Assembly: GCA_031275485.1 (NCBI GenBank)
Contig: JAISOS010000045.1
Coordinates: 1-51,317 of the forward strand
DNA: 51,317 nucleotides
Direction: 5' to 3'
Source: Clostridiales bacterium
GTDB lineage: Bacteria > Bacillota > Clostridia > Christensenellales > JAISNN01
Below are positions 7,198 through 31,394 of the stretch, in pieces. Under the pieces are notes generated by a model, which saw only the letters and a list, made by a program, of their open reading frames with translations, was not told where the DNA came from and ran no database searches. Both the position numbers and the translations under genes were made by a program. Numbering within the stretch: position 1 is the first letter of the stretch; each line of letters begins with the position of its first letter.

Positions 7198-7872
7198 ATG
7201 TTAGATATTCTTTTTAAATCCGACGGCTCGCCGCGGGATACGTTTATCGAACTCGCAGGGTATCTTTTCGCTCTGATTGTCGGCTTTATGATGCACGAAT
7301 TGGCGCACGGCTACGTCGCTAAATGGAACGGCGACGACACCGCGAAGCTCGCGGGGCGGCTGACCTTTAATCCCTTGAAGCACCTCGATTTGTTGGGCAC
7401 GGTTTGTCTTTTGCTGTTCGGGTTCGGCTGGGCGAAGCCCGTGCCGATCAACACGCGGAATTTCAGACATTTTCGGCGCGGATTTTTTGCCGTCGCGATA
7501 GCGGGCGTGACTATGAATCTTATTCTCGCGCTGTTTTTTACGGGCGCGTACCATTTGCGGTCTTTCGCCGAGCCCGCGCTTACGGCTACGGAGCTCGGGG
7601 CGACGATAGCCTATTTGTTATACGCGTTTACGTATTACAGCATATTCGTAAATCTTATGCTTATGATTTTCAATTTGATGCCCGTGGCGCCGCTCGACGG
7701 TTTTAGAGTGCTGGAGGCGTTAGGCGAGGGCAAGAGCCGCATTATAGACAAATATATCGATTTTATGAGACGTTACGGCTTCATGACGATTATAATCATA
7801 ATCGCGTTTAACAATTTAGGGTTGTTCAGCGCGATAATAGGTTGGTTCGCCGATATTTTGGGTATAAAGTAA
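7198..7872 (+). CDS. Site-2 protease family membrane metalloprotease (M50)
   Basis: This is an intramembrane zinc protease of the rhomboid-unrelated S2P class, 224 residues. The zinc-binding HELAH motif is at residues 33-37 in the first membrane segment. The third ligand lies in the NLMPVAPLDGFRVL motif (Asp167) in a later segment. About five or six hydrophobic segments are visible and there is no PDZ domain, so it belongs to the short group often found next to scpA in Clostridia. The substrate is unknown. AACGGAG lies 10 nt before the ATG. It is the first gene of a co-directional cluster with scpA and scpB. Confidence 0.88.
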   Translation: MLDILFKSDGSPRDTFIELAGYLFALIVGFMMHELAHGYVAKWNGDDTAKLAGRLTFNPLKHLDLLGTVCLLLFGFGWAKPVPINTRNFRHFRRGFFAVAIAGVTMNLILALFFTGAYHLRSFAEPALTATELGATIAYLLYAFTYYSIFVNLMLMIFNLMPVAPLDGFRVLEALGEGKSRIIDKYIDFMRRYGFMTIIIIIAFNNLGLFSAIIGWFADILGIK

Positions 7873-8051: not shown

Positions 8052-8087
8052 TAAAGCTCCGTTTTTTCAAAAAAAGGAATTTTGCTA

Positions 8088-8945
8088 ATGGATGAGAATA
8101 TAAACGCGCCGAATTGTGAAAACGACGGGGCGCGAAATTCCGCCGCCGTCGGTTTTTTGCATTCCGGCTTTCGGCACGAATTTAAATTGAGGACTTTCGA
8201 GGGTCCGCTCGACCTGCTTTTGAGTCTTATAAGAGAGGCGAAAATCGACATAAAAGATATATTCGTGTCCGAAATTACGAATCAGTATATCGAATACGTG
8301 GCGGGAATGGACTTCCTCGACCTCGATTACGCGGGCGATTTTATAGAAATGGCGGCGGCGCTACTCGAAATCAAATCGAAAAAATTGCTGCCGAAGGTCG
8401 AAAAGGAGAAAAACGAGGAGGACGTCCGGGACGAGGATTGGCTGATACGGCAGCTGGAGGAATACAAGCTGTTTAAGGACGCCGCCGAAACGCTTAGGAC
8501 GCTCGAGATTACGGGCGCGTTCTACCGCGAACCCGATTATGACGAAAACGACTTCAAAACCGTATTCAAAAATTTTTCGACGGAAAAGCTGATAGAGGCG
8601 TTCGCCGCCGTCCTGCACAGGAGCGGCAGGCGCGATACGGAAAATATCACGCGCAAAATAGTTAAGGAACGTTTCACCGTGGCGAACCGCGTCATTTTTA
8701 TAGCGCGGCTGCTCCGCGAACGCGGGAGGATCGGCTTTTTCGGACTGTTTGACGACGGTTTTTCCAAATTGGAGGTTATAAATACCTTTTTGGCGGTGCT
8801 GGAATTGCTGAAAAAACAGCTCGCGAGAGCCGAACAAGACGAATATTATTCGGATATTTTTTTGACGGCGGGAGATGCGGGAGACGTTGACGCCGCGGGG
8901 CTTGACGCGGAGGACGCCGCGTCCGACGCGGACGAATTTAAATGA
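8088..8945 (+). CDS. scpA: Segregation and condensation protein A
   Basis: Kleisin subunit of the Smc-ScpA-ScpB condensin that organises and separates chromosomes. The kleisin N-terminal part is clear: FKLRTFEGPLDLLLSLI, then KIDIKDIFVSEITNQYIEY and DFIEMAAALLEIKSKKLLP, which bind the Smc neck. The C-terminal winged-helix part follows, ending in GFSKLEVINTFLAVLELLKKQL. There is an extra N-terminal stretch of about 25 Asn/Ala/Gly-rich residues and a C-terminal acidic Asp/Ala tail, both unusual. I chose the ATG at 8088, with AAAAAGGAAT upstream, over the TTG at 8082. It precedes scpB. Confidence 0.92.
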   Translation: MDENINAPNCENDGARNSAAVGFLHSGFRHEFKLRTFEGPLDLLLSLIREAKIDIKDIFVSEITNQYIEYVAGMDFLDLDYAGDFIEMAAALLEIKSKKLLPKVEKEKNEEDVRDEDWLIRQLEEYKLFKDAAETLRTLEITGAFYREPDYDENDFKTVFKNFSTEKLIEAFAAVLHRSGRRDTENITRKIVKERFTVANRVIFIARLLRERGRIGFFGLFDDGFSKLEVINTFLAVLELLKKQLARAEQDEYYSDIFLTAGDAGDVDAAGLDAEDAASDADEFK

Positions 8946-9132
8946 GAAACGGCGGGGCGCGTGAAAAAGACGCGGAAACGGAAAATAACGGCATAGAAAA
9001 GCGCGTTAAAACACGTAAGAATACGTAAAAAAGGAATATACGAAAAAAGGCAAAAAACGCGTAAAAAAAAATAGAAAATGACGGAGAAGAGCCGCGCGGC
9101 GGACGGTTTTCGGGGACGGGGAAAAGTAACGG
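8946..9132. other. A-rich spacer between scpA and scpB
   Basis: Purine-rich leader of 187 nt with scattered AAAAACG units, resembling the stretch before the membrane protein gene at 5406. No promoter or terminator recognised. Confidence 0.4.
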
Positions 9133-9801
9133 ATGGATAATTTGAAGGAAATACTCGAAGCGGTGATTTTTACCGCCGGAAAGGGCGTGTCGAAAAAGGA
9201 AATCGCCGAAAAACTGCCAGGCGCGTCGGCGGAGGAGATCGAAAACGCGCTCGCCGCGCTCGCCGAAAAATACGGAGGAGAATCCGGAGTGAGGCTTATA
9301 AGATATAACGACAAGGCGCAGTTTTCCTCAAATCCCGCCTACGGCGGCTCGGTGTCGGACGTGCTGACGCCCGTAAAGGAACGGGAACTCTCGAAAACGC
9401 TGCTGGAAGTGCTTGCTATAATAGCTTATAAACAGCCCGTTACGAGGCTCGATATAGAGGAAATCAGGGGCGTAAGCTCGGAATACGCCGTGGCTCTGCT
9501 CCAAAAGGTCAATATGATAGAGTCGGCCGGCACAAAAGACGCCGTGGGGCGTCCGACGCTTTTTCGGACGACGGAGGAGTTTTTGAGAAAATTTTCCTTA
9601 GGAGAAATCGGCGACCTGCCGATGTACGGCGAGGTCTTAGAGCGCGTGAAGTTAATCGACGAAAACTATAACAGAGTTTCGGAGGCTTTGTATAACGACC
9701 GCGCCGCCGCGCTTGCCGCCGCCGACGGGGACGAAGGGGAGTTCGAGGACGCGGAAAAGCCCGAATTTTTAGAGGGCGAGGAATACGAGGTTATAGAATA
9801 G
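9133..9801 (+). CDS. scpB: Segregation and condensation protein B
   Basis: Winged-helix partner of ScpA in the condensin complex; a dimer binds the middle of ScpA. The 222-residue protein begins LKEILEAVIFTAGKGVSKKEIAE and carries the family motif LLEVLAIIAYKQPVTRLDIEEIRGV near the middle, then a second winged helix (VGRPTLFRTTEEFLRKFSLG). The C-terminus is an acidic tail rich in Glu and Asp. It follows scpA and is probably translated from the same message. Confidence 0.93.
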   Translation: MDNLKEILEAVIFTAGKGVSKKEIAEKLPGASAEEIENALAALAEKYGGESGVRLIRYNDKAQFSSNPAYGGSVSDVLTPVKERELSKTLLEVLAIIAYKQPVTRLDIEEIRGVSSEYAVALLQKVNMIESAGTKDAVGRPTLFRTTEEFLRKFSLGEIGDLPMYGEVLERVKLIDENYNRVSEALYNDRAAALAAADGDEGEFEDAEKPEFLEGEEYEVIE

Positions 9802-10066: not shown

Positions 10067-13000
10067 ATGTTTGCAAAATTCAGCGTGAAAAGACCGCATA
10101 CCGTTATAGTGGCTATCGTTTTGATAGCCATTCTCGGCTTTTTGTCGTTTCGGGATATGGGCGTGGATTTTTTGCCGAACATAAATCTGCCGTACATAGT
10201 CGTCGCCACGCCTTACCCCGGAGGCTCCTCGCCGGAGGCCGTCGAGGAGGTAGTTACCGCGCCCCTCGAACAGGTCATAGCGACCGCCGGCAACATCAAA
10301 AGCATTACGACGGAATCATATCCTATGCTGTCCTTTATAATCATAGAGTTTAAGGGCGGTACCGATATAAATTCCGCGCTGACCGAAATCAACGAGAAAA
10401 TCAAAAACTTCAAGACGATGAGGGAAAGCTCCGGACTTTTGGACGAGGCGGTGAATTCGGGAGGCTCCACGATACCGGATCAGTTCGCCGACGCCGCCGA
10501 TCTTATGAACGCAATTTCGGATTCCGTGGTTATGACCGTCAATCCGACTATGCTCCCGATTATGAAGATTTCGCTCTACGAACGAGGCAAGACGATTGCC
10601 GAATCTTCGGCGTATCTCGAGGCGGCCGCGAAAAAACTAGAGACCGTGGACGGCGTGTCGTCCGTGGACGTTACCGGACTTGTCAAGACGATGTATTTTC
10701 TCAATATCGACAACGGCAAAATTATAAACTCCGTGCTGTCCGCGTTTATAGATTTCGACGCTGCGTTCGACGCGCTCTACGACGGGATTTTGGCGCTGTC
10801 CCGCGAGGCTGCGGATGGCAGATTGGCCGACGACGCGGCGATTATGGCGCAAAACGTTCAAGCCGCCGCAGACGCGGTATTCGCGGAGATGAACGGACTT
10901 GCCGCGGCGCTGGGCGGCGCGGTCGAAGACGCGGTTTCGGGCGTCGCGGAAAGGGCGGCGGACGGTATGTTCGATATGATTAAGGACGCGGCGGACGCGG
11001 CGTTCGGCGGCTTGGACGCGGACGGGAGGGGCGCGGCGGAAGCTCTCAAAAATATGATTTTGGACGCCGTTTCCGATGCGGAGGTCTCCTTTACGGAGGC
11101 GGCAAAGACGGCGGCGGTGGAGGCCGTCGGGCAGTTTTTCGACGGATTGATAATTTCCTTAAACGCCGCTTTCGACGGCTTGTATACGGGCGATCCTATA
11201 AACGACGGTCTGATAGACGGCTTGAAGCAAAGCGTTTCGGAAGCCGCGGAGGGTATGCGGGAGCCTCTTTACGAGGCGGCGAGAGACGCCGCCGCGAGCG
11301 TGTCCGCCGGCGTTTTCAACGGATTAAGAGAAAGCGTAAGCGCGGCGTTCGACGGTCTGAACGCGGAAGGAGCGCTCGACGAAATTATAGAGGGAATAAG
11401 AGAAAGCGTTTCGGAAGCGATAGAGAACGCGAGGGCGGCCTTTAAGGAATCTTTGAGAACCGCCGTAGAGGGGAGCGTGACGGACGCCGTTCAAGGAGAG
11501 ATAAACGCGTTAAAGGCCGAAATCGACGGAATTATAGGGGAAGCCGCAGACTTCGCCGACGAATATCTGACGATGATAGGCCCCGCGATAGAAGACCCCG
11601 CCGCCGTGCTTTACGGCGTGCTGAAAGACGCGGAAACGCGCGTACAATATAAAACGCTCTACTTCGACGCGCTCGACGCGCTGTTCGATTACGCGGGCGC
11701 GGCGATCGGCGAGATAATAGCCGCCGATCTTTTGGAAATGGCGCTGTTCGCTAACGATATGGAAATGCCCGTAGGCTCGGTCGGCGGCTCGACGATAGCC
11801 GTAGGCAATAAGGTGACGACGAAAGAGGAGTTGTTTACTCTTCCGATAGCGACGGTAAATATCGCGGACGAAATTTTAAACGCCGTCGCGGGACTGAGAC
11901 TAAGCGAATTGGACGCGGCTTATCAAACGAACGCGCTTCTACTCGCGTTCGCCGAATCGCTCGCCGCGTGGGCGCTGACCCCGGGCGCAAGCGCGGCGGG
12001 GCTTTTGAGCTCCGTTATAAAGGCCGTCGACGGCGCGGGCTTAAAAACCGAAACATTGAGAGAGCTTTTGAGGCTGTACGGCATAACCTCCGACATATTC
12101 GGAGATCTGAACGCGATAGACGAGGCTTTCGAGGACGGGAAATTCTCTCTTTCCTCGTTGCTCGCCGCGAACGAAGCGTTCGGAGACGCCGTGCATTGGC
12201 TACGGGACGGCAGTATCACGCTGCGTCTTGACGATATTTGCGCGATTACCGAAATCGACAACGGGAGCCTTCTGCATACGATTTTGAACGGCGTGGCGGG
12301 CGTACAACTCAGTGTGAACAAGAATCCGACCGCGTCCACTGCGGAAGTTTCAAGCGGAGTGCGCGCGCTCCTTGAGGAGCTTGCGGCGCAAAATCCCGAC
12401 CTCGAATACGTAGTTCTCGAGGATCAGGGCGAGTATATTCAATTGGTGATAAACACAATTTTGAGCAGTCTTATCACGGGCGGCATACTGGCGGTTCTGG
12501 TTCTGCTATTTTTTCTGAAAAAGACCGGTCCGACAATCGTCGTCGGTCTGTCGATAGTTCTTAGCCTCGTTTTGGCGTTCATTATGATGCGTCTCGCGGG
12601 GATAGAGCTTAATATAGCCTCGATGGGCGGACTGGTACTCGGCGTGGGCATGCTTGTGGACAATTCCATCGTCGTAATCGAGAACATATTCTCTATGAAA
12701 AACTCGGGCAAGGACGTGTTTAAGGCGGCGGTAGACGGCACGAATCAGGTTACGGAGGCTATCGTCGCGTCCACGCTTACGACCGTCGTAGTGTTCGTGC
12801 CGCTGTTCTTTACAAGCGGCATAGCCTCGGAAATCATAACCGACCTCGCGCTCACGATGTCTTTCGCGATCGCGTCGAGTCTCATAGTCGCCTTGACCTT
12901 CGTGCCTATGGCGGCGACCACCTTTATAAAAAATTCCGACAAGATTTCGCGCCTGCAAACTTTCGCCTTCGGGCTGTTCTATAAATTTACGTCGGATTTA

Positions 13001-15307
13001 AAAAAACGCCCGAAATGGTTGCGCGCCGCGCTTTCGCCCGTCGTTATAGCGGGGAATCTGCTGATAAAGGAAACTTCGGAGCGCGACGGGAAATTGTTTA
13101 ACATATTCAAAAAGGGCTATAAAAACGTACTCAAATTCTGCCTCAATAAAAAGGTCGTCCCGATTACCGTTGCGGCGGTTCTTTTGGGCTTCGCCGCGCT
13201 CGCGGCGTTCACCGTGAACAGCTCGATTCTGCCCGAGCTCGATATGAACACGATAAATATGCACTTTGACGTGGACGAGACCAAGCTTTACGAGTACGGC
13301 TTCGACAAAAACGACGTGTTGCAAGCACTAATGTACGCGACCGACGACGCCGTTGAAAGGCGCGGAGAGCGCGAAATCGCGGACAGCAGCGTTTCGGTCT
13401 ATACGGGCTTCAAGATTATGGGTTCGTCGATAGAGGATATGAGCGGCGGGCTTATCAATACGGACGGAATGTTCGGAGGCACGCTCCTCGGCGGCGCGGT
13501 GTCGTCCGGCGGCGACCTCGAATGCACGGTGCTTCTGAACGACAAAAAAATCCGAAAAAAATCCGCCGCGGATATAGCGGGAGAGATAGCGCGCGAAATT
13601 TCCGCCGTAACTTACGGTCAAACCGGCGCGGGCGGCGGCTCCGGGCTTTTCGGCGGCATAAATTTGGGAGGAATAGACCTCGGAGGCATAGATTGGGACG
13701 CGATCCTTGGCGGCGGGGCGTCCGCGTCCGGCGAAAAACCGTTTTCCGACTTCGTAAGGATAAGCTATTCTTTCAACAGCATAGCGGAAATTGCCGCCCT
13801 AGACAACGATTACGTTCAGTTGAACGTCTACGCGGACGATATGACGATTCTGGAAGCGCAGACTGCGGCTCTCACCGAGACGATTAGAAATAACGCGCGC
13901 GGCGTAACCGCCGTCTCGAACACTCTGGAAAACCGCGCCTACGAGTACCGCTTAATTCTGGACAAGGATAAGGTAAGCCAAAAGACGGGCGGCTTTAACG
14001 CCACCGTCATTATGGAGCTTTTACGGCGGTTTACCGAACCCGCGTCCGGCTCCGCCGTCACTTTGACCGACGCGGACGGGAAAAAGACGTCTTACGACGT
14101 AACCGTCTATTCGTCCGAAAGAGAGGTCAAAAAATGGTACAGGATAGACGTCGCCAAATTGAGCGGCGCGGATGCGGGCAGATATAAGAACATATACGTG
14201 GAGGAATACGCCGCGAAGGACGAAAACGGCAAGGATACCGTTGTCGCGGCGTACTATACCTACGACACGGCGGGTATAAAATGGGCTTTGGAGAAACGCG
14301 CGGACGGCGCGTTCGTAAACGACGGCGCGGATATCCTGCTCTATAAAAAATCCGATACCATATACTACTCCACGGAATTCCGCGACGCGATAGCATCCGC
14401 GAAGGATCTCCTTTATTACGAATTGCCTTACGAGAATTTTTTGACGGGCGAGACTGGGACGGTCGCCTTGTATGAGCTTTTGAGCGAGGAATGCATAATC
14501 CGCAGCGAAAACGGAGAGCCGACCGATATAACGAAAACGCCTGCGGATATGAAAATAACCAAGACGTCCGGCTCGCGCTATCTTCCGATAACCGTATACT
14601 TCGGCTCCGGCACGGGCGTGAACGCCGTGAAATCCGAAATCAATAGGGCCGTCGCCGCTTATTATTCAGAAAACGCGAAGCCCGGCGGACTGACCTACGG
14701 GTTCTCGTCCTCCACCGCGCTTGCCGACGAGATATTCTCGACTATGTTCTTCGTTTTGGGGCTGGGCGTGGTTTTTATTTATCTCGTTATGGTCGCGCAG
14801 TTCAGATCCTTGAAAGACCCGCTCATCATTATGTTTACCGTGCTTTTGGCGTTTACGGGCAGTATGTTCGCGCTGGTTATGTTCGGAATGGAAATATCGA
14901 TGTTTTCCATAATAGCGTTCATAGTGCTCGCGGGCGTGGTCGTCAATAACGGCATCGTATTTATCGACTATACGAACAGGCAGATAGCCGAGGGTAAGTC
15001 CGTGCGCGAAGCGATCCTGAAAACCGCCGAGGACAGACTCCGCCCGATTTTAATGACCGCGCTGACCACTATTATGTCTTTGCTCGTTATGGCGTTCGAC
15101 GCCTCGCAGGCGGCGTCCGTGCTTCGTCCTATGGGCGTCGCCGCGACTGGCGGTTTGCTCTACGCGACGCTCCTTACTCTCATAATCGTGCCTACGCTTT
15201 TCGAGCTGTTCAATAAGGAAAAAAAGAACGGCAAAAAACGGTTCAGACTCTTCGCCGAAAATTACGAGTATTTCAATAAGGAACGGACAAAAAAAGAATC
15301 GCTGTGA
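10067..15307 (+). CDS. Giant RND-family efflux permease (AcrB/SwrC-like) with large porter-domain insertions
   Basis: A proton-driven membrane exporter of the AcrB/HAE group, 1746 residues against about 1030-1100 normally. The N-terminal membrane segment and porter start are typical (PYPGGSSPEAVEEVVTAPLE; FKGGTDINSALTEINEKI). At about residue 215, where AcrB has a short hairpin, roughly 330 residues of Ala/Asp/Glu-rich amphipathic helix with internal repeats (FDGLNAEGALDEIIEGIRES-like units) are inserted. The porter resumes at VGSVGGSTIAVGNKV, about 564. A second helical insertion of about 120 residues precedes LRLDDICAITEI, about 718. The first membrane bundle follows (GGLVLGVGMLVDNSIVVIENI). 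The second half also has a long Gly-rich stretch before the last bundle (VLAGVVVNNGIVFIDYTNR). No membrane-fusion partner is adjacent, as for SwrC. GGAGGTGA precedes the ATG. Confidence 0.9.
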   Translation: MFAKFSVKRPHTVIVAIVLIAILGFLSFRDMGVDFLPNINLPYIVVATPYPGGSSPEAVEEVVTAPLEQVIATAGNIKSITTESYPMLSFIIIEFKGGTDINSALTEINEKIKNFKTMRESSGLLDEAVNSGGSTIPDQFADAADLMNAISDSVVMTVNPTMLPIMKISLYERGKTIAESSAYLEAAAKKLETVDGVSSVDVTGLVKTMYFLNIDNGKIINSVLSAFIDFDAAFDALYDGILALSREAADGRLADDAAIMAQNVQAAADAVFAEMNGLAAALGGAVEDAVSGVAERAADGMFDMIKDAADAAFGGLDADGRGAAEALKNMILDAVSDAEVSFTEAAKTAAVEAVGQFFDGLIISLNAAFDGLYTGDPINDGLIDGLKQSVSEAAEGMREPLYEAARDAAASVSAGVFNGLRESVSAAFDGLNAEGALDEIIEGIRESVSEAIENARAAFKESLRTAVEGSVTDAVQGEINALKAEIDGIIGEAADFADEYLTMIGPAIEDPAAVLYGVLKDAETRVQYKTLYFDALDALFDYAGAAIGEIIAADLLEMALFANDMEMPVGSVGGSTIAVGNKVTTKEELFTLPIATVNIADEILNAVAGLRLSELDAAYQTNALLLAFAESLAAWALTPGASAAGLLSSVIKAVDGAGLKTETLRELLRLYGITSDIFGDLNAIDEAFEDGKFSLSSLLAANEAFGDAVHWLRDGSITLRLDDICAITEIDNGSLLHTILNGVAGVQLSVNKNPTASTAEVSSGVRALLEELAAQNPDLEYVVLEDQGEYIQLVINTILSSLITGGILAVLVLLFFLKKTGPTIVVGLSIVLSLVLAFIMMRLAGIELNIASMGGLVLGVGMLVDNSIVVIENIFSMKNSGKDVFKAAVDGTNQVTEAIVASTLTTVVVFVPLFFTSGIASEIITDLALTMSFAIASSLIVALTFVPMAATTFIKNSDKISRLQTFAFGLFYKFTSDLKKRPKWLRAALSPVVIAGNLLIKETSERDGKLFNIFKKGYKNVLKFCLNKKVVPITVAAVLLGFAALAAFTVNSSILPELDMNTINMHFDVDETKLYEYGFDKNDVLQALMYATDDAVERRGEREIADSSVSVYTGFKIMGSSIEDMSGGLINTDGMFGGTLLGGAVSSGGDLECTVLLNDKKIRKKSAADIAGEIAREISAVTYGQTGAGGGSGLFGGINLGGIDLGGIDWDAILGGGASASGEKPFSDFVRISYSFNSIAEIAALDNDYVQLNVYADDMTILEAQTAALTETIRNNARGVTAVSNTLENRAYEYRLILDKDKVSQKTGGFNATVIMELLRRFTEPASGSAVTLTDADGKKTSYDVTVYSSEREVKKWYRIDVAKLSGADAGRYKNIYVEEYAAKDENGKDTVVAAYYTYDTAGIKWALEKRADGAFVNDGADILLYKKSDTIYYSTEFRDAIASAKDLLYYELPYENFLTGETGTVALYELLSEECIIRSENGEPTDITKTPADMKITKTSGSRYLPITVYFGSGTGVNAVKSEINRAVAAYYSENAKPGGLTYGFSSSTALADEIFSTMFFVLGLGVVFIYLVMVAQFRSLKDPLIIMFTVLLAFTGSMFALVMFGMEISMFSIIAFIVLAGVVVNNGIVFIDYTNRQIAEGKSVREAILKTAEDRLRPILMTALTTIMSLLVMAFDASQAASVLRPMGVAATGGLLYATLLTLIIVPTLFELFNKEKKNGKKRFRLFAENYEYFNKERTKKESL

Positions 15308-17660: not shown

Positions 17661-18971
17661 TTACCGAGCGTCGCGATCTCGGCTTTTGGGTTTTTGTTTA
17701 GGTGGCTCCGGTGCGTTGTCAATCCTGACCCTCCACGGACTTTCTGCCCGAAGCTTACTCATTTCCTTTGCTCTCTGAGATTCAATTCTCTGCTGTTCCC
17801 GCGCCTCCTTTGCCTTTTGGACAACTTCCAAGAGGAAGCTTATCACCGTTTCCGGGACTTCTCTCATGGCTTCTATGAACGGCTGCGCTTTTTCCTGCAA
17901 TCTCTCAAACGCGGACTTCATATCGAAATATTTTTCGCGCCATCCACGAAGCTGTGTGCTCAAGTCCTCGATGGTATGCTGCGCCTTGTAGGCGAATTTT
18001 GCGAGACTTGTGAGCTTTTCAAATTCCGCTGCGGTCAATTCCACCTTGTCGCTGAACCGTTTCTTTTTGCCCATTTTCTCAACTTCCACGATTCCGCGAT
18101 ACATCGGTTCGACCTGCCGGATTCGGTCTTTCAACTCGTCTAGCCACATCTCAGATTCCAACGTGTCGGCGCGGATTTCTTTGAGCCGCACACGCTCCTG
18201 TGAGACCTTATACTCCGCTATCTCTTGATGTTCAGCGGTGCTGCCCTCCACGCCGCGTTCGAAATCTGTAAAACCAGCATCCCTCATGTGGTTGAAAAAT
18301 CTTGTCTGCAACAGGCTGTATGAAGCCATTCGCCGCGTTTCGCCCTTTTCGTTGACCGTATCCTGGAACGCCCACTTTTTGCTGTGACTGATTTGGTGGA
18401 TGACATCCTTCGTTTTGCCGACTAAAGTTGGGTCGCGACAGCGTTTCGACCACTTGACCTCTTTGTCCACCACCGGGAGATAAATCACGTGCAGATGATA
18501 GTGGTAAACATCCTTGCCAAGCTTCTCTGAAAGTCCCTTGTTCCGCTCGTCTGCGTGCATTACCGCCGAGAGGATATACGGACTGCCGACTTCTTTTTCG
18601 GCAAATCGGAATACCTCCCCGAAGAAAGCTTTTGCGTAATCATACCCGCCATGCCGTTCAAAATAAGCGGTGTTTACGTCAAAGACCATCTCCTCGAAGA
18701 TTTTCGCATCCTCCTTCAGACCTCTTGTGCTGACCTCGCCCGCCTCAAGCATTTGCGCCAGCTTTTGCTCGTAGGTGGCGTCGCACCGCCGAAAGTGGAC
18801 ATTGAGCGGACTGCGCTCCGGCTCGATGTCGGGGTTGGCGTAATGCTCGTTTTTGCGTTCGTTGTGCCGTTCCCGAATACCGATACCGCCGCGCTTGTAA
18901 GATTGATTTCGGACTACCGTCCGGTCAACCTTTTCTGTTTCTACCCCATTTGCATCACCTCCGTTCCGCAA
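17661..18971 (-). CDS. mobV: MobV-family relaxase (Mob/Pre plasmid mobilization protein)
   Basis: It nicks and covalently binds the element at oriT for conjugal mobilization. The N-terminus has the MobV hallmark GIGIRERHNERKNEHYANPDIEPERS. The histidine motif YHYHLHVIYLP supplies metal ligands. The C-terminal half is a long coiled coil (about residues 240-410) and a Pro/Lys-rich end. The start is a problem: the only good ribosome binding site (GGAGGTGATG) leads to ATG codons at 18957 and 18949 that run into TAG after a few codons, because the protein frame is offset by one base at a run of four G. In-frame TTG codons at 18971 and 19001 lack ribosome binding sites, and the latter overlaps the promoter. 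The given start is provisional. Confidence 0.85.
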   Translation of the reverse strand: MRNGGDANGVETEKVDRTVVRNQSYKRGGIGIRERHNERKNEHYANPDIEPERSPLNVHFRRCDATYEQKLAQMLEAGEVSTRGLKEDAKIFEEMVFDVNTAYFERHGGYDYAKAFFGEVFRFAEKEVGSPYILSAVMHADERNKGLSEKLGKDVYHYHLHVIYLPVVDKEVKWSKRCRDPTLVGKTKDVIHQISHSKKWAFQDTVNEKGETRRMASYSLLQTRFFNHMRDAGFTDFERGVEGSTAEHQEIAEYKVSQERVRLKEIRADTLESEMWLDELKDRIRQVEPMYRGIVEVEKMGKKKRFSDKVELTAAEFEKLTSLAKFAYKAQHTIEDLSTQLRGWREKYFDMKSAFERLQEKAQPFIEAMREVPETVISFLLEVVQKAKEAREQQRIESQRAKEMSKLRAESPWRVRIDNAPEPPKQKPKSRDRDAR

Positions 18972-18989
18972 GTGGTTCTTGCATATACA

Positions 18990-19036
18990 ATTATACTGCA
19001 AACACTATTGACAAGTCAAGCGTGATTTGCTATAGT
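18990..19036. promoter_or_regulatory. Divergent overlapping promoters and operator between mobV and the XRE regulator
   Basis: Rightward: TTGACA 19008-19013, 17 nt, TATAGT 19031-19036. Leftward, read on the minus strand: TTGACT (19019-19014), 18 nt, TATAAT (18995-18990). The two -35 boxes are the arms of one inverted repeat, TTGAC-AA-GTCAA, at 19008-19019. A protein bound there would block both promoters, so the XRE product probably represses itself and the relaxase. Confidence 0.75.
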
Positions 19037-20236: not shown

Positions 20237-20295
20237 CAACGACAGCGATACAAATAAAATTCTCCCCGCTATCTCTTTTGAAGGAGCAATGCCGT

Positions 20296-23166
20296 ATGAA
20301 TACAACGCCATTAGAAATGGATACAAGAAATCTGATAAACAAGAGCCTTGAAAATTTGGGTTGGGTGCTTGATGGTACACAGCAGAATGTTTATTTCGAA
20401 CAACCTAAAACGGAAACTGAAAAAAAGAAGTTGGGCGGTAAACGACCCGACTATGTACTATATTCATCTGATAAAAACGCCAATGACAAGCCGTTGATTG
20501 TTATTGAGGCGAAAAAGAAGGGCGAGCGTTTGGATACGGCTTTGGAGCAAGGGGTTCACTATGCCCGTCAGCTTGAGGCTCCCATTGTTTTTGCCACGGA
20601 TGGCCTGTTCTGTAAATCCTATCATACAAAGTTTGACAGGACGCCTATTCTGAATGGTGAAGAAGTGGATGAATTTCTTCGTGAAGCGTTAGCATTAAAA
20701 TATTTATCGCAATGGGAAGTCAACACTGTTTCGCCCAAGGTTCAATATGACCGCAAAGAACTCATCAAAATTTTTGATGAAGCCAATAATATGCTCCGTG
20801 GCGAAGGGCTTCGCGCAGGAATTGAGCGTTTTGGCGAATTTGCAAATATCCTTTTTTTGAAACTGATAAGTGAAACGGAGCAAATCAAAGAAGAATCGGG
20901 CGAAAAATCGGATTTCGATTCAGCTTGCCGTTGGGATGCAATAAAAAACATTCCGGCAACTGCCAGAATTGATTATATTAATGCTACCGTTTTTGAGCGA
21001 CTAAATACCAGATATAACACACCTATATTTACGCCGCTTACTATTCGTAGCGAAAGCATCTTGAAAGAGATAATGGACAAATTAGACCCTCTGATGCTGA
21101 CGGATGTTGATTCAGACGTTAAGGGAGATGCTTTTGAATATTTCCTTAAAGAATCTGCTGCCACTAAAAATGACTTAGGCGAGTATTTTACACCTCGTCA
21201 TATCGTTAAAACGATGGTTAAATTGGTCAATCCACAAATTGGGGAAAAAATATATGACCCTTTCTGTGGAACGGGTGGATTTCTCATTGAAAGTTTCCGT
21301 CACATATGGAACACTATGGCGAGAAATGATGAAAACAAGAGCAAGCTTAAAGAGAAAACTATTTACGGTAATGAGATAACTAATACTGCCAGAATAACGA
21401 AAATGAATATGATACTGGCTGGTGACGGTCATAGCAACATTCATATGAAGGACAGTCTTGCTAATCCTGTCGATGGAATGAAAAACGAGGGTTATGACAT
21501 TGTCATCACCAATATGCCCTATTCTCAAAAGACCAAGTATGGTAGCCTGTATGACTTGCCATCCAACAACGGTGATAGTATATGCGTTCAGCATTGTATG
21601 AAAGCAATCAATGCCACCGCCGAAAATGGGCGCATGGCTCTTGTTGTGCCAGAAGGCTTTTTGTTCCGTAAGGATTTAGCAAAAACGCGAGAGTTGCTTA
21701 TGAAAAACAGTAATCTTCAAAGCGTTGTTTCTTTACCGCAGGGGGTCTTTTTACCCTATACAGGTGTGAAAACGGACATTATTTATGCCACAAAGGTAAA
21801 TCAAAAACTCAAAGCTGCCGATAAGCGTAAAGACTTCTGGTATTTTGAGGTTAAAAATGATGGCTATACGCTTGATAACCACAGGCGCAAATTAGATGTT
21901 GGCAACGATTTGGAAAAGCCGCAGGAATATCGCAAATTAGATGAAGACCAACGCCAAGAAATGATGGATGTTGGTTTTGAAACCATACCTATTGAAAAGG
22001 TTAAGAACAATTCTTATATTTTGGTGGGCAGTAGATATAGGGAACAAAGCCAGTCCAAAAGCATGTTTGAATTGTTGCCGTTAAAAGCAGTGACAGAAAT
22101 TATTGCAGGACAATCACCTGATGGGAGTAATTATAATACGCAGGGTAACGGCATCCCCTTCTATCAAGGCAACGCTGATTTCGGTTCTGTTTGCCTCAAT
22201 GCGCCCCAAAAATGGACCACACAGATTACTAAAACAGCAATCACCTCAGATATTCTGCTATCCGTAAGAGCTCCAGTTGGAGCGGTTAATATTTGTAATC
22301 AAGAAGTGTGCATCGGCAGAGGTCTTATGGCTTTACGCGCAAAAAATATAACCGAAGCAAAGTACCTTTTCTATGTACTAAAGGGCGCATCTGAAAAACT
22401 GCGCAATTTTTCTTCGGGAAGTACTTTTGAGGCAATTACTAAAAAGGATGTTGAGGATTTCAAAATACCTGTGCCATCATTTGAAATTCAGCAACAAATC
22501 GTTGATGAACTGGATAGCTATCAACGCATTATTGATGGTGCGAGAGCGGTTGCGGATAATTACAGCCGTATAATTCGCATTGGCTCAGACTGGGAATTGA
22601 GAAAAGTTGGCGATATGTGTAAAATAAATAGTGAATCGGTAGACCCATCGCAAAAATATGGAGAATCTGAGTTTGTCTATATTGATATTTCTTCCATTGA
22701 AAACAGTACAGGTGCTATTGAAAGAGTGAATCATATAAAGGGAACGAATGCCCCAAGTCGCGCCCGACGAGTTTTCAAGTATGGAGACATACTGATGTCA
22801 ACTGTCAGACCTAACCTAAAAGCATTCGCCTATGTTGATTTTGATGCAGGTAACTATATTGCTTCAACTGGTTTTGCCGTGCTAACGCCGGAAAATGTTT
22901 CGGGGAAATTTCTTTATTATATGCTATTCCAAGATTTCGTGGGGAATCAACTAACAGACTTGATGAGCAAAGGTATGTACCCAAGTATTAATAAATCTGA
23001 TGTGGAAAGCATTAGCATACCCGTTCCGTCAATAGAAGTTCAACAACAGATTGCATCTGAAATCGAAAAGGAAGAATCGCTTGTTGAACCATCAAAACAG
23101 CTTGTAAAGGTATTCACAAAGAAAATTCAAAATCGCATCAATGAGATTTGGGGTGAAAAAGTATGA
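20296..23166 (+). CDS. Single-chain restriction-modification-specificity enzyme (type IIG/type I-like RMS fusion)
   Basis: It combines in 956 residues what type I systems split into subunits. Residues 1-110 resemble a type I HsdR N-terminal nuclease: Asp52 (RPDYVLY) and Glu71-x-Lys73 (IVIEAKKK) form a PD-(D/E)xK site. Residues about 150-580 are an N6-adenine methylase: SAM motif DPFCGTGGFLIES (321-333) and catalytic NMPY (406-409, where NPPY is usual). Residues about 590-760 and 765-950 are two HsdS-like target recognition domains, each ending in IPVPS..IQQQI-type helices. No translocase helicase is present. I use the ATG at 20296, nine bases after AAGGAG, rather than the TTG at 20278. It overlaps the next gene by four bases. 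Codon usage is A+T-rich, in line with transfer. Confidence 0.88.
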   Translation: MNTTPLEMDTRNLINKSLENLGWVLDGTQQNVYFEQPKTETEKKKLGGKRPDYVLYSSDKNANDKPLIVIEAKKKGERLDTALEQGVHYARQLEAPIVFATDGLFCKSYHTKFDRTPILNGEEVDEFLREALALKYLSQWEVNTVSPKVQYDRKELIKIFDEANNMLRGEGLRAGIERFGEFANILFLKLISETEQIKEESGEKSDFDSACRWDAIKNIPATARIDYINATVFERLNTRYNTPIFTPLTIRSESILKEIMDKLDPLMLTDVDSDVKGDAFEYFLKESAATKNDLGEYFTPRHIVKTMVKLVNPQIGEKIYDPFCGTGGFLIESFRHIWNTMARNDENKSKLKEKTIYGNEITNTARITKMNMILAGDGHSNIHMKDSLANPVDGMKNEGYDIVITNMPYSQKTKYGSLYDLPSNNGDSICVQHCMKAINATAENGRMALVVPEGFLFRKDLAKTRELLMKNSNLQSVVSLPQGVFLPYTGVKTDIIYATKVNQKLKAADKRKDFWYFEVKNDGYTLDNHRRKLDVGNDLEKPQEYRKLDEDQRQEMMDVGFETIPIEKVKNNSYILVGSRYREQSQSKSMFELLPLKAVTEIIAGQSPDGSNYNTQGNGIPFYQGNADFGSVCLNAPQKWTTQITKTAITSDILLSVRAPVGAVNICNQEVCIGRGLMALRAKNITEAKYLFYVLKGASEKLRNFSSGSTFEAITKKDVEDFKIPVPSFEIQQQIVDELDSYQRIIDGARAVADNYSRIIRIGSDWELRKVGDMCKINSESVDPSQKYGESEFVYIDISSIENSTGAIERVNHIKGTNAPSRARRVFKYGDILMSTVRPNLKAFAYVDFDAGNYIASTGFAVLTPENVSGKFLYYMLFQDFVGNQLTDLMSKGMYPSINKSDVESISIPVPSIEVQQQIASEIEKEESLVEPSKQLVKVFTKKIQNRINEIWGEKV

Positions 23167-28790: not shown

Positions 28791-31394
28791 ATGGAATGGC
28801 TTACGGAATGGATTGCGGAAACGGGGTATGTGGGGACGGCTTACGCGGTCGCGTTTATCGCGATAGCTGCGGGCGCTTTATTCTCGGGCTTTACTAAGGG
28901 CTGGAAAAGGAGTCTTTTGCGGCTCGTATTGACGGTTGTCGCCGTGCTTTTGACGGTAGCCGCGTTGCCCGCCGTGCTGGATTTGGTTTTAACGTCGGAT
29001 TTTTCGTCCGTTTATCAATTGGAGATAGAAGGGACGGGAGTTTCGACGTTGCAGGAAATCGTGGACGTTTATATCGTTAAATACGCCGGAGAATATATAA
29101 GCGCCGATTCGGGCACGGCGGGACTTGCGGTTTCGCTGGCGAAAATGCTCGTTTCGCTCGTCGTGTTCTTTGTTCTTTTCGGAATAATCAATTTCTTCAT
29201 GCAAATAGTCTATTGGCTCATAAAAGGACTCGTCGATTCCAAGCACACTGCGGGCAAAAAGTTCAAAAGCAAAAAACTCGTCGGCGCGCTTATCGGAGCG
29301 GTCAACGGTGCCGTGCTCGCTTTCGTATCCTTAGCGCCCGTTTTGGGACTCGCGGATTTAGCGCAACCGTTCGTTAAGAACGAATTCGTCCGCGGAAAAC
29401 TGCCGGAAGAGATACTGGTTTACGCGGACGAATTCGTCGACTACGACGGCTTTGTCAAAAAGATTTTAGGCTACGATGGGTTGGACGTCGACTTTCTAAA
29501 CAGAATTACGCGCGTCGAAAACAGCGACGGCACGGAGCTGTCCGCGTCGGATTTTAAAGAGTTTTCGGAGATTTTGACCGAGGCGGTATGGCTTTATGAG
29601 AATAAGGACAAGTTGCAGGACGTCGAAGCGATGAGCGAGGAGGAGATGACTACCGCGATAACCTACGCGCAAAAAATCGTCGATTTTCTCTTTGAGAACG
29701 GCGTTACCGAGATAATTTTAAACGACGGGTTGAAATATCTGAAGGATCATCCGATAACCAAATTGGACGCGCTGAAAGGGCTTGATGCGGTTTGGAAAGA
29801 GCTTATAACCGTCGCCGCCGACGCGCTGTTCGGCGATTACGGCGCGACGGAAAAGGTGCGCGCGGAGCTGAACGCGCTTTTCGGTCTTGCGAACAATCTG
29901 ATTCCGCAAATCAAGTGGTTCGCGGCGAATTCCGCCGCTCTTTCGGGTATATTCGACGGCACGCTAACCGACGAAACCGTGAAAGAGGCGTTTACGGAGC
30001 ACGCGCAAGCCGCAATCGACGCGCTTTTCGGCGCGGAGAACGACACGCTGATAACGAAAGTCGCGGCGGAAATAATCGTCGGCGGCACTGATTTATCCGA
30101 CATGATTCCCGAGGATTTCAGACCGGCGGTCGCCGAAATACTCGGCGTAATAGGCGCTGGCGGGTCGGAGAACGTCAAAGCCAATCTCCGCGAACTGTTG
30201 AGCTTCGCCGTCGATTTGGTCGGAAAAACATCCGTCGTCGGCACGCTTAAAAGCGTAGACGGCGCGACGGACGGCGGCGCGAGCGCGCTTCGGGCACTGC
30301 TTGCGGACGAGGATTTTGTGGAAATTTTCAGGACGAATATCGGCAACGAGGCGGTTTCGGGAACCATAGCCGGTCTTGTGGATGCGCTGTTGAAAGACAC
30401 GCCGCAGGCGGGGGCGCCGCTCGGCGATTTTTTCCGCGAGCTTGGCAAAAATCCGTCGGCGGTAGCCGTCGAGTTTGGATTTATGTCGAACGCGTTCGGC
30501 GCGATAGAAAGCTTCGATTGGAGTGAGCTTTCAAAATTTGCGGACGGGCTTAACGCCGTCTTTGAAATCGAAGACGGCGGAGCCGCGTCGCTGACCCAAA
30601 GAACGATCGCCGCGATAATCGCCAACGTGTTTGTTTCGGAGATTCTCAGACCGGACGCTTATGAAGCCGTCGGTATAATTACGATGCCGTCGGTCGCGGG
30701 TCAGGACGCTCCGGCTTGGTCGGGCGGGACCTGGACCGGAGAGGCTTGGACGGCGGAAATCAATATCGTAAACGAACTTTTAACGGCTCTCGGCGAGGCG
30801 GTTTCGAGCGGCTCCGAAATTGACGGCGCCGATTTGACGGCTCTCGGCGGGGCGCTCGATAATTTAAAGGAATCCAAGCTTTTCTACAACGACTATAACG
30901 GCTTTGTAGGCTTTGTGTTGGGAGAAGCTAACGACGCTCTCGGCGGATTGCTTGACGGCTTTGACGGCGATTACAGAACGGTGGAATGGAAGAATACGTT
31001 CGCCGTGGCGTATGCCGCGTATCAATTAAGTCGGGCGGATTTAAGCGGCGTAATAGACGCGATAGCGGAGACGGTGGAGGATATTATCGCGAACGGCATA
31101 GACGGCGTAGACGGCGGCGATTTAGCGGCGGTATACGAAGCCGTTGCAAATAGCGTGGGCGGCGAGGTAATAGCGGTTATTCAAGAGATTTTGAGCGGCA
31201 TTATTTCGGACGGAGGCGCGGGCGAGGCGGTAAGCGGCGTTTTGGAGAATATACCGAACGACCTAAAAGAAAAACTCGCGGAAAAAGCGGCGGAATTGCT
31301 GACGGGCGGCGAGAGCGCGGCGGGGGATGCGGCATGGATAACGGACTTCCTCGCCGGTCTATTCGACTATATATCCGAATACGACCCCGCGTAG
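28791..31394 (+). CDS. Large CvpA-like membrane protein with long helical extracytoplasmic region
   Basis: The first 185 residues contain about four membrane segments and the CvpA-type sequence FSGFTKGWKRSLLRLVLTVVAVLLTVAAL, later KLVGALIGAVNGAVLAFVSLAPVLGL. CvpA (colicin V production) proteins are about 160-200 residues; here about 680 more follow, rich in Ala, Asp, Glu and Gly, helical, without further membrane segments. That region is similar in composition to the insertions in the RND permease at 10067. It ends in DYISEYDPA with no anchor motif. The function is unknown; a cell-envelope role is a guess. A strong terminator lies 115 nt downstream. Confidence 0.7.
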   Translation: MEWLTEWIAETGYVGTAYAVAFIAIAAGALFSGFTKGWKRSLLRLVLTVVAVLLTVAALPAVLDLVLTSDFSSVYQLEIEGTGVSTLQEIVDVYIVKYAGEYISADSGTAGLAVSLAKMLVSLVVFFVLFGIINFFMQIVYWLIKGLVDSKHTAGKKFKSKKLVGALIGAVNGAVLAFVSLAPVLGLADLAQPFVKNEFVRGKLPEEILVYADEFVDYDGFVKKILGYDGLDVDFLNRITRVENSDGTELSASDFKEFSEILTEAVWLYENKDKLQDVEAMSEEEMTTAITYAQKIVDFLFENGVTEIILNDGLKYLKDHPITKLDALKGLDAVWKELITVAADALFGDYGATEKVRAELNALFGLANNLIPQIKWFAANSAALSGIFDGTLTDETVKEAFTEHAQAAIDALFGAENDTLITKVAAEIIVGGTDLSDMIPEDFRPAVAEILGVIGAGGSENVKANLRELLSFAVDLVGKTSVVGTLKSVDGATDGGASALRALLADEDFVEIFRTNIGNEAVSGTIAGLVDALLKDTPQAGAPLGDFFRELGKNPSAVAVEFGFMSNAFGAIESFDWSELSKFADGLNAVFEIEDGGAASLTQRTIAAIIANVFVSEILRPDAYEAVGIITMPSVAGQDAPAWSGGTWTGEAWTAEINIVNELLTALGEAVSSGSEIDGADLTALGGALDNLKESKLFYNDYNGFVGFVLGEANDALGGLLDGFDGDYRTVEWKNTFAVAYAAYQLSRADLSGVIDAIAETVEDIIANGIDGVDGGDLAAVYEAVANSVGGEVIAVIQEILSGIISDGGAGEAVSGVLENIPNDLKEKLAEKAAELLTGGESAAGDAAWITDFLAGLFDYISEYDPA

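Follow-up and report, generated by a model that had tools for sequence, protein, structure and literature searches.

A giant AcrB-type RND permease with mostly helical docking-domain insertions in a Clostridiales bacterium, a possible adaptor-free exporter

Background

AcrB, MdtB and the other HAE-1 permeases share a common core of transmembrane (TM) and porter segments, with 12 TM helices, two large loops and the PF00873 (ACR_tran) domain. In AcrB, the docking-domain hairpins cross-link to TolC (PMC4446572), and S258 is located in the beta-hairpin of the docking subdomain DN (PMC5404916). The alpha-hairpins of TolC and AcrA, which belong to separate proteins, are parts of a helical conduit that meets the RND funnel at a surface equivalent to that of the insertions described here; no sequence relation to these insertions was found. 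In a different RND family, MmpL4 and MmpL5 (MmpS5L5) of mycobacteria also carry a large helical insertion predicted to make an envelope tube: for the 196 aa inserted in MmpL5, the prediction is a hexameric helical tube of 13 nm, and efflux is lost when they are deleted (PMC12501195). This insertion lies in the second periplasmic domain and consists of a heptad antiparallel pair with a disulfide; the partner protein is MmpS. We regard MmpL5 as the closest precedent for a helical stalk or tube made by an RND insertion.

In this work, we describe a permease encoded within the window, a 51,317-nucleotide stretch of DNA from a gut Clostridiales bacterium, which shares the HAE-1 core and differs from AcrB and MdtB by about 430 additional residues in DN, about 92 in DC, and a genome in which neither adaptor nor TolC was detected.

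Results

The permease is encoded by a frame with no internal stop:

10067..15307, + strand: AcrB-type RND permease, 1746 aa, 12 TM segments (ORF, PF00873, hydropathy)

PF00873, the only Pfam family found in the protein, matches it with an E value of 2.3e-130 (436.6 bits, cut-off 28) in three pieces, corresponding to profile positions 1-199, 249-569 and 797-1020; no MMPL family domain is present. By hydropathy, two large extracytoplasmic loops, 36-790 (about 755 aa) and about 1055-1550, follow TM1 and TM7 which, together with the profile order, is the AcrB/HAE-type arrangement. MdtB, CmeB and AcrB are among the best solved relatives in PDB sequence alignments; the curated NCBIfam cut-offs for multidrug RND subfamilies were not reached, either by NF033617 (377 bits vs 1250) or by the others. 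The N-terminus, MFAKFSVKRPH, is near-identical in complete genus relatives. TM4 reads VDNS (D865) and TM10 VNNG, so that D-N and N occupy what we take to be the equivalents of the AcrB relay D407/D408-K940; for this reason proton coupling is only assumed, from family membership. The second Asp and the Lys are replaced also in L058, a relative without insertions.

In an anchor-to-anchor alignment, the DN region (residues 205-722) spans 517 aa, against 106 aa in L058 (1060 aa). DN is enlarged by about 430 aa, mostly helical, and two insertions were mapped in it:

10727..11701, + strand: DN insertion 1, residues about 221-545, acidic Ala-rich helical domain with 11/15-residue periodicity (mapping, periodicity, AF2 helices)
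11849..12196, + strand: DN insertion 2, residues about 595-710, about 115 aa (alignments)

A sequence-only reading of this DNA had proposed an RND permease enlarged by helical residues at 215-564 and 577-718: the frame, the split profile match and the DN length bear out the enlargement, and the two stretches correspond to the mapped insertions. Their assignment to the porter domain has to be revised, as the sequence alignments place them on the membrane-distal side, within the docking (funnel) subdomain. This location follows from site mapping via MdtB and from AcrB hairpin equivalence. Insertion 1 is preceded by the DN strand NIDNGKI and followed by a helix leading to EMPVGS, its site being fixed through the L058-MdtB alignment (L058 193 = MdtB 203, L058 225 = MdtB 208); D714-G715-S716, directly after insertion 2, correspond to about AcrB 256-258, at the tip of the beta-hairpin, by the offset of the PDB alignment (698-957 to AcrB 239-500). 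Insertion 1 matches no Pfam family above cut-off and no PDB sequence (best E 0.97). Its best sub-threshold Pfam match is Apolipoprotein (E 0.0003, 21 bits vs a cut-off of 90); Perilipin is weakly matched by it and Phasin by the L037 insertion, both below curated cut-offs.

The hydrophobic periodicity of insertion 1 is 3.75 residues per turn, with a power of 52; none of 200 shuffles exceeded 24.5. The shuffle test was run on two proteins, the second being L037, whose first half is 48% identical and which has the same period, likewise far above shuffles; a period of 3.75 was also found in L042 and of 3.71 in L039. Autocorrelation peaks at 11, 15, 26 and 30 in L037, the spacing of a right-handed coil, and similarly in L042; it is mixed in L039, and L010, a partial sequence, comes closer to 3.6. 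Two AF2 runs (two-sequence alignments, single chain), of low mean pLDDT (50.3 and 38.7), predict helices at 253-314, 322-371, 377-429 and 437-519, with nearly equal borders in both, except for a nick in the third, at 397, in the larger of the two. In that larger model insertion 1 scores better than any other region, with block means of mostly 55-79. Helices of 50-83 residues such as these would measure about 7.5-12.5 nm, given 1.5 A per residue. Disorder of insertion 1, named beforehand as an outcome that would undo the helical reading, is not predicted, the helical periodicity and the AF2 helices arguing against it. For insertion 2, which has no significant helical periodicity, the AF2 models suggest helices at low confidence, so that the proposed helicity holds for the first insertion and only tentatively for the second.

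Internal repeats had also been proposed, and the self-alignment score of insertion 1, 206 against 58 +/- 11 for shuffles, agrees with them:

10838..11536, + strand: diverged repeats of about 57 aa in insertion 1, residues 258-317 (marginal), 318-373, 374-432 and 433-490

Pairs among units 318, 374 and 433 reach scores of 67-78, where shuffling yields maxima of 36-52, and unit 258 is marginal; insertion 1 contains three or four diverged units. The helix breaks fall on the AAF[DG]GL-type turn motifs that close the units, the last copy being degenerate. A repeat profile trained on the window protein (P0001) did not detect the units in relatives; the repeats are therefore either confined to this protein or have diverged too far elsewhere to be recognised. 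Tandem expansion at the DNA level was rejected, as TRF shows only 9-bp, 2-copy arrays.

Two features were located in the second loop:

14129..14404, + strand: DC insertion, residues about 1355-1446, about 92 aa (alignment, periodicity test)
13613..13732, + strand: Gly-rich loop, residues 1183-1222 (alignment)

The Gly-rich loop, pointed out in the initial reading, does exist, but is absent from the genus relatives L037 and L042; the notable change in this half is the DC insertion, common to relatives of the "giant" clade described below and absent from L058 and L057. It shows no significant helical periodicity.

Homologous insertions of about 195-335 aa are found in genus relatives, known from separate MAGs; for insertion 1, the comparison with L037 gives a z of 17. 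The DN region measures 388-528 aa in other genus members with complete sequence, L010 being partial and the gene of a sixth genome cut at a contig end. The search for homologues with the same insertions, suggested beforehand, thus led to rejection of an assembly error as their source: they recur in separate MAGs, with no stops.

In an order-level tree, some deep nodes of which are weakly supported, the window genus falls inside a clade whose members are giants (1417-2105 aa) and have an enlarged DC. Two RND permeases from other families of the order, L045 (2105 aa) and L052 (1939 aa), exceed that of the window. A second order-level group, of 1240-1410 aa, mostly features heptad DN inserts. Within a class-wide sample, counted by eye, about 95 of the strong RND hits show no break, nearly all in proteins of 1004-1074 aa, and 27 begin at profile positions of about 190-206, mostly in proteins of 1220-1490 aa. 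Most of the 15 profile-break proteins examined contain an insert that measures 225-295 aa and is autocorrelated at 7 residues; in the heptad group the autocorrelation is high at both 7 and 14. In L103 and L104, the insert is short and lacks this signal. In L102, L105-L113 and L116, the DN-site insert (about 225-295 aa, helical) starts like EKIDxLNKKIL and apparently represents an unnamed domain.

Insertion 1 lies at this same recurrent site, ACR_tran position about 198, as do the inserts of clostridial heptad-insert RNDs of 1210-1350 aa (L057, L065, L102, L105-L113, L116). These have a period of about 3.5, and L057 and L065 feature a DC of normal size and, like the window gene, no adjacent exporter partner. 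The window type differs from them by its 11/15 correlation in place of the heptad 7/14, by its extra insertions and by its position behind scpAB. Judging from these sequence comparisons, the window permease looks like an extreme case of an enlargement that many Clostridia share; no description of clostridial RND docking-domain insertions was found in the open-access literature.

The genes preceding the permease are:

7198-7872: M50 peptidase gene, preceding scpA
8082..9801, + strand: scpA and scpB, directly upstream of the RND gene (Pfam, tblastn)

The order M50-scpA-scpB-RND is kept in the genus where contigs allow (tblastn), and Pfam identifies no exporter partner among the neighbours. TetR genes adjoin L057, L065, L047 and L058; none is next to the window gene. 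Downstream, a Mob_Pre plasmid mobilisation gene (17661-19001, - strand) has as neighbours an HTH gene and an ORF that by eye resembles type I restriction-modification genes (20278-23166); together they are probably a mobile element.

In the whole genome, 91% complete, there is no match to OEP (TolC-type) or Omp85, and the sole RND_mfp match, below cut-off, coincides with a stretch whose product is a biotin carrier protein of 133 aa; neither the cognate adaptor nor the outer-membrane factor of a tripartite pump was thus detected. Since none of these was detected, the cell likely lacks an outer membrane, consistent with what had been supposed from the sequence; at this level of completeness, a partner gene may have been missed.

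Two other membrane proteins of this genome are likewise enlarged, as are their counterparts in the genus. The first, an MMPL transporter (1740 aa; L079:2367-7589, G000:C57), has a second extracytoplasmic region of about 1180 aa with diverged repeats of about 100 aa; genus orthologues with complete frames measure 1539-2193 aa, against mostly 650-1000 in the order's other families. A CvpA-like protein of 867 aa (window 28791-31394, + strand), with only a weak Colicin_V match, bears an Ala/Asp/Gly-rich extension of about 680 aa and measures 852-894 aa in genus members with near-complete matches. These extensions and the RND loop are alike in composition (acidic, Ala/Gly-rich, low-Lys/Arg). Homology of the RND insertion to either extension was rejected, the similarity not being significant.

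Discussion

The reading that we favour, though we put it slightly below an even chance, is that of an adaptor-free AcrB-type exporter with a helical docking-domain superstructure, most likely carrying substrate into or through the wall. The superstructure is suggested by the DN length, the 3.75 period and the agreement of AF2 helix borders, by the position of insertion 2 against the equivalent of the AcrB hairpin contacting AcrA and TolC, by the heptad inserts at the same site in other Clostridia and by the MmpL5 tube; that no adaptor would be involved is suggested by the lack of OEP, Omp85 and true RND_mfp matches in the genome. Such an exporter, probably proton-driven, would function with neither adaptor nor TolC. 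We envisage a docking domain rebuilt by a bundle of long helices of about 325 aa with right-handed 11/15 periodicity, plus about 115 aa at the hairpin tip, in DN, and by about 92 aa in DC. If the protein forms a trimer like AcrB, a helical superstructure about 8-12 nm long would stand on the funnel exit. Its most likely task, in line with what has been proposed for the coiled-coil tube of MmpL5, would be to conduct substrate outward from the membrane, either into the wall or through it. We infer trimer state, height, proton coupling and conduit role. The MmpL5-type heptad hairpin of the second periplasmic domain was not found here, the main insertion being in the first loop with a period of 3.75. 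The tall stalk or conduit of the sequence-only reading gains from the extra helical mass, its outward location and the MmpL5 precedent, although AF2 confidence is low; a stalk role of the DN insertions is plausible, a conduit across the wall more conjectural.

Within the genus, insertion length varies about two-fold (about 195 to about 335 aa), which counts against a fixed-geometry tube, as such a tube would not obviously tolerate this spread. Because of this variation, which better suits a spacer or scaffold, a serious rival, although on balance unlikely, is that the helices substitute for the missing adaptor ring in stabilising the trimer, or attach to polymers of the wall or to another envelope protein, with substrate exiting at the funnel as usual. 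The insertions lie where AcrA packs in AcrB, and the MmpL10 coiled-coil domain is reported to trigger oligomerisation (PMC12183618). Long helices of about 325 aa, however, exceed the expected need for trimer stabilisation, and relatives without insertions, among them L058 and most of the class members measuring 1004-1074 aa, do without any such helices.

The parallel enlargements of the MMPL and CvpA-like proteins, whose composition, though not sequence, matches that of the RND loop, would fit either a shared envelope constraint or a tendency of the lineage to lengthen certain loops. They favour a lineage-specific, largely neutral or generic extracytoplasmic enlargement with little specific transport role, which we nevertheless consider improbable: only these three proteins stand out by these measures in a sample of about 372 kb of the genome, the same DN site is expanded in many Clostridia, and the repeats keep a regular helical period. 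More improbable still is that the amphipathic helices bind lipid or hydrophobic cargo, in the manner of apolipoprotein or perilipin 11-mers, as a sink or shuttle for hydrophobic substrates. The 11-residue correlation and the Apolipoprotein, Perilipin and Phasin matches reported above point in this direction, but every Pfam match is below the curated cut-offs, and amphipathic helices commonly give such matches.

A bolder version of the favoured reading, which we rate as rather unlikely, would see in the adaptor-free exporter a single-polypeptide efflux machine of a cell without outer membrane, its AcrB docking domain itself turned into an exit duct, helical and right-handed, by convergence with MmpL5 and TolC, within an undescribed, class-wide clostridial group with helical inserts.

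Little is understood of the way AcrB-type pumps function in bacteria that have no outer membrane. The recurrence of a helical insertion at the docking surface, along with the apparent lack of partners, makes a direct test of its role feasible. If the favoured reading is true, RND transporters would have gained wall-reaching helical extensions more than once, in the window type and in MmpL5.
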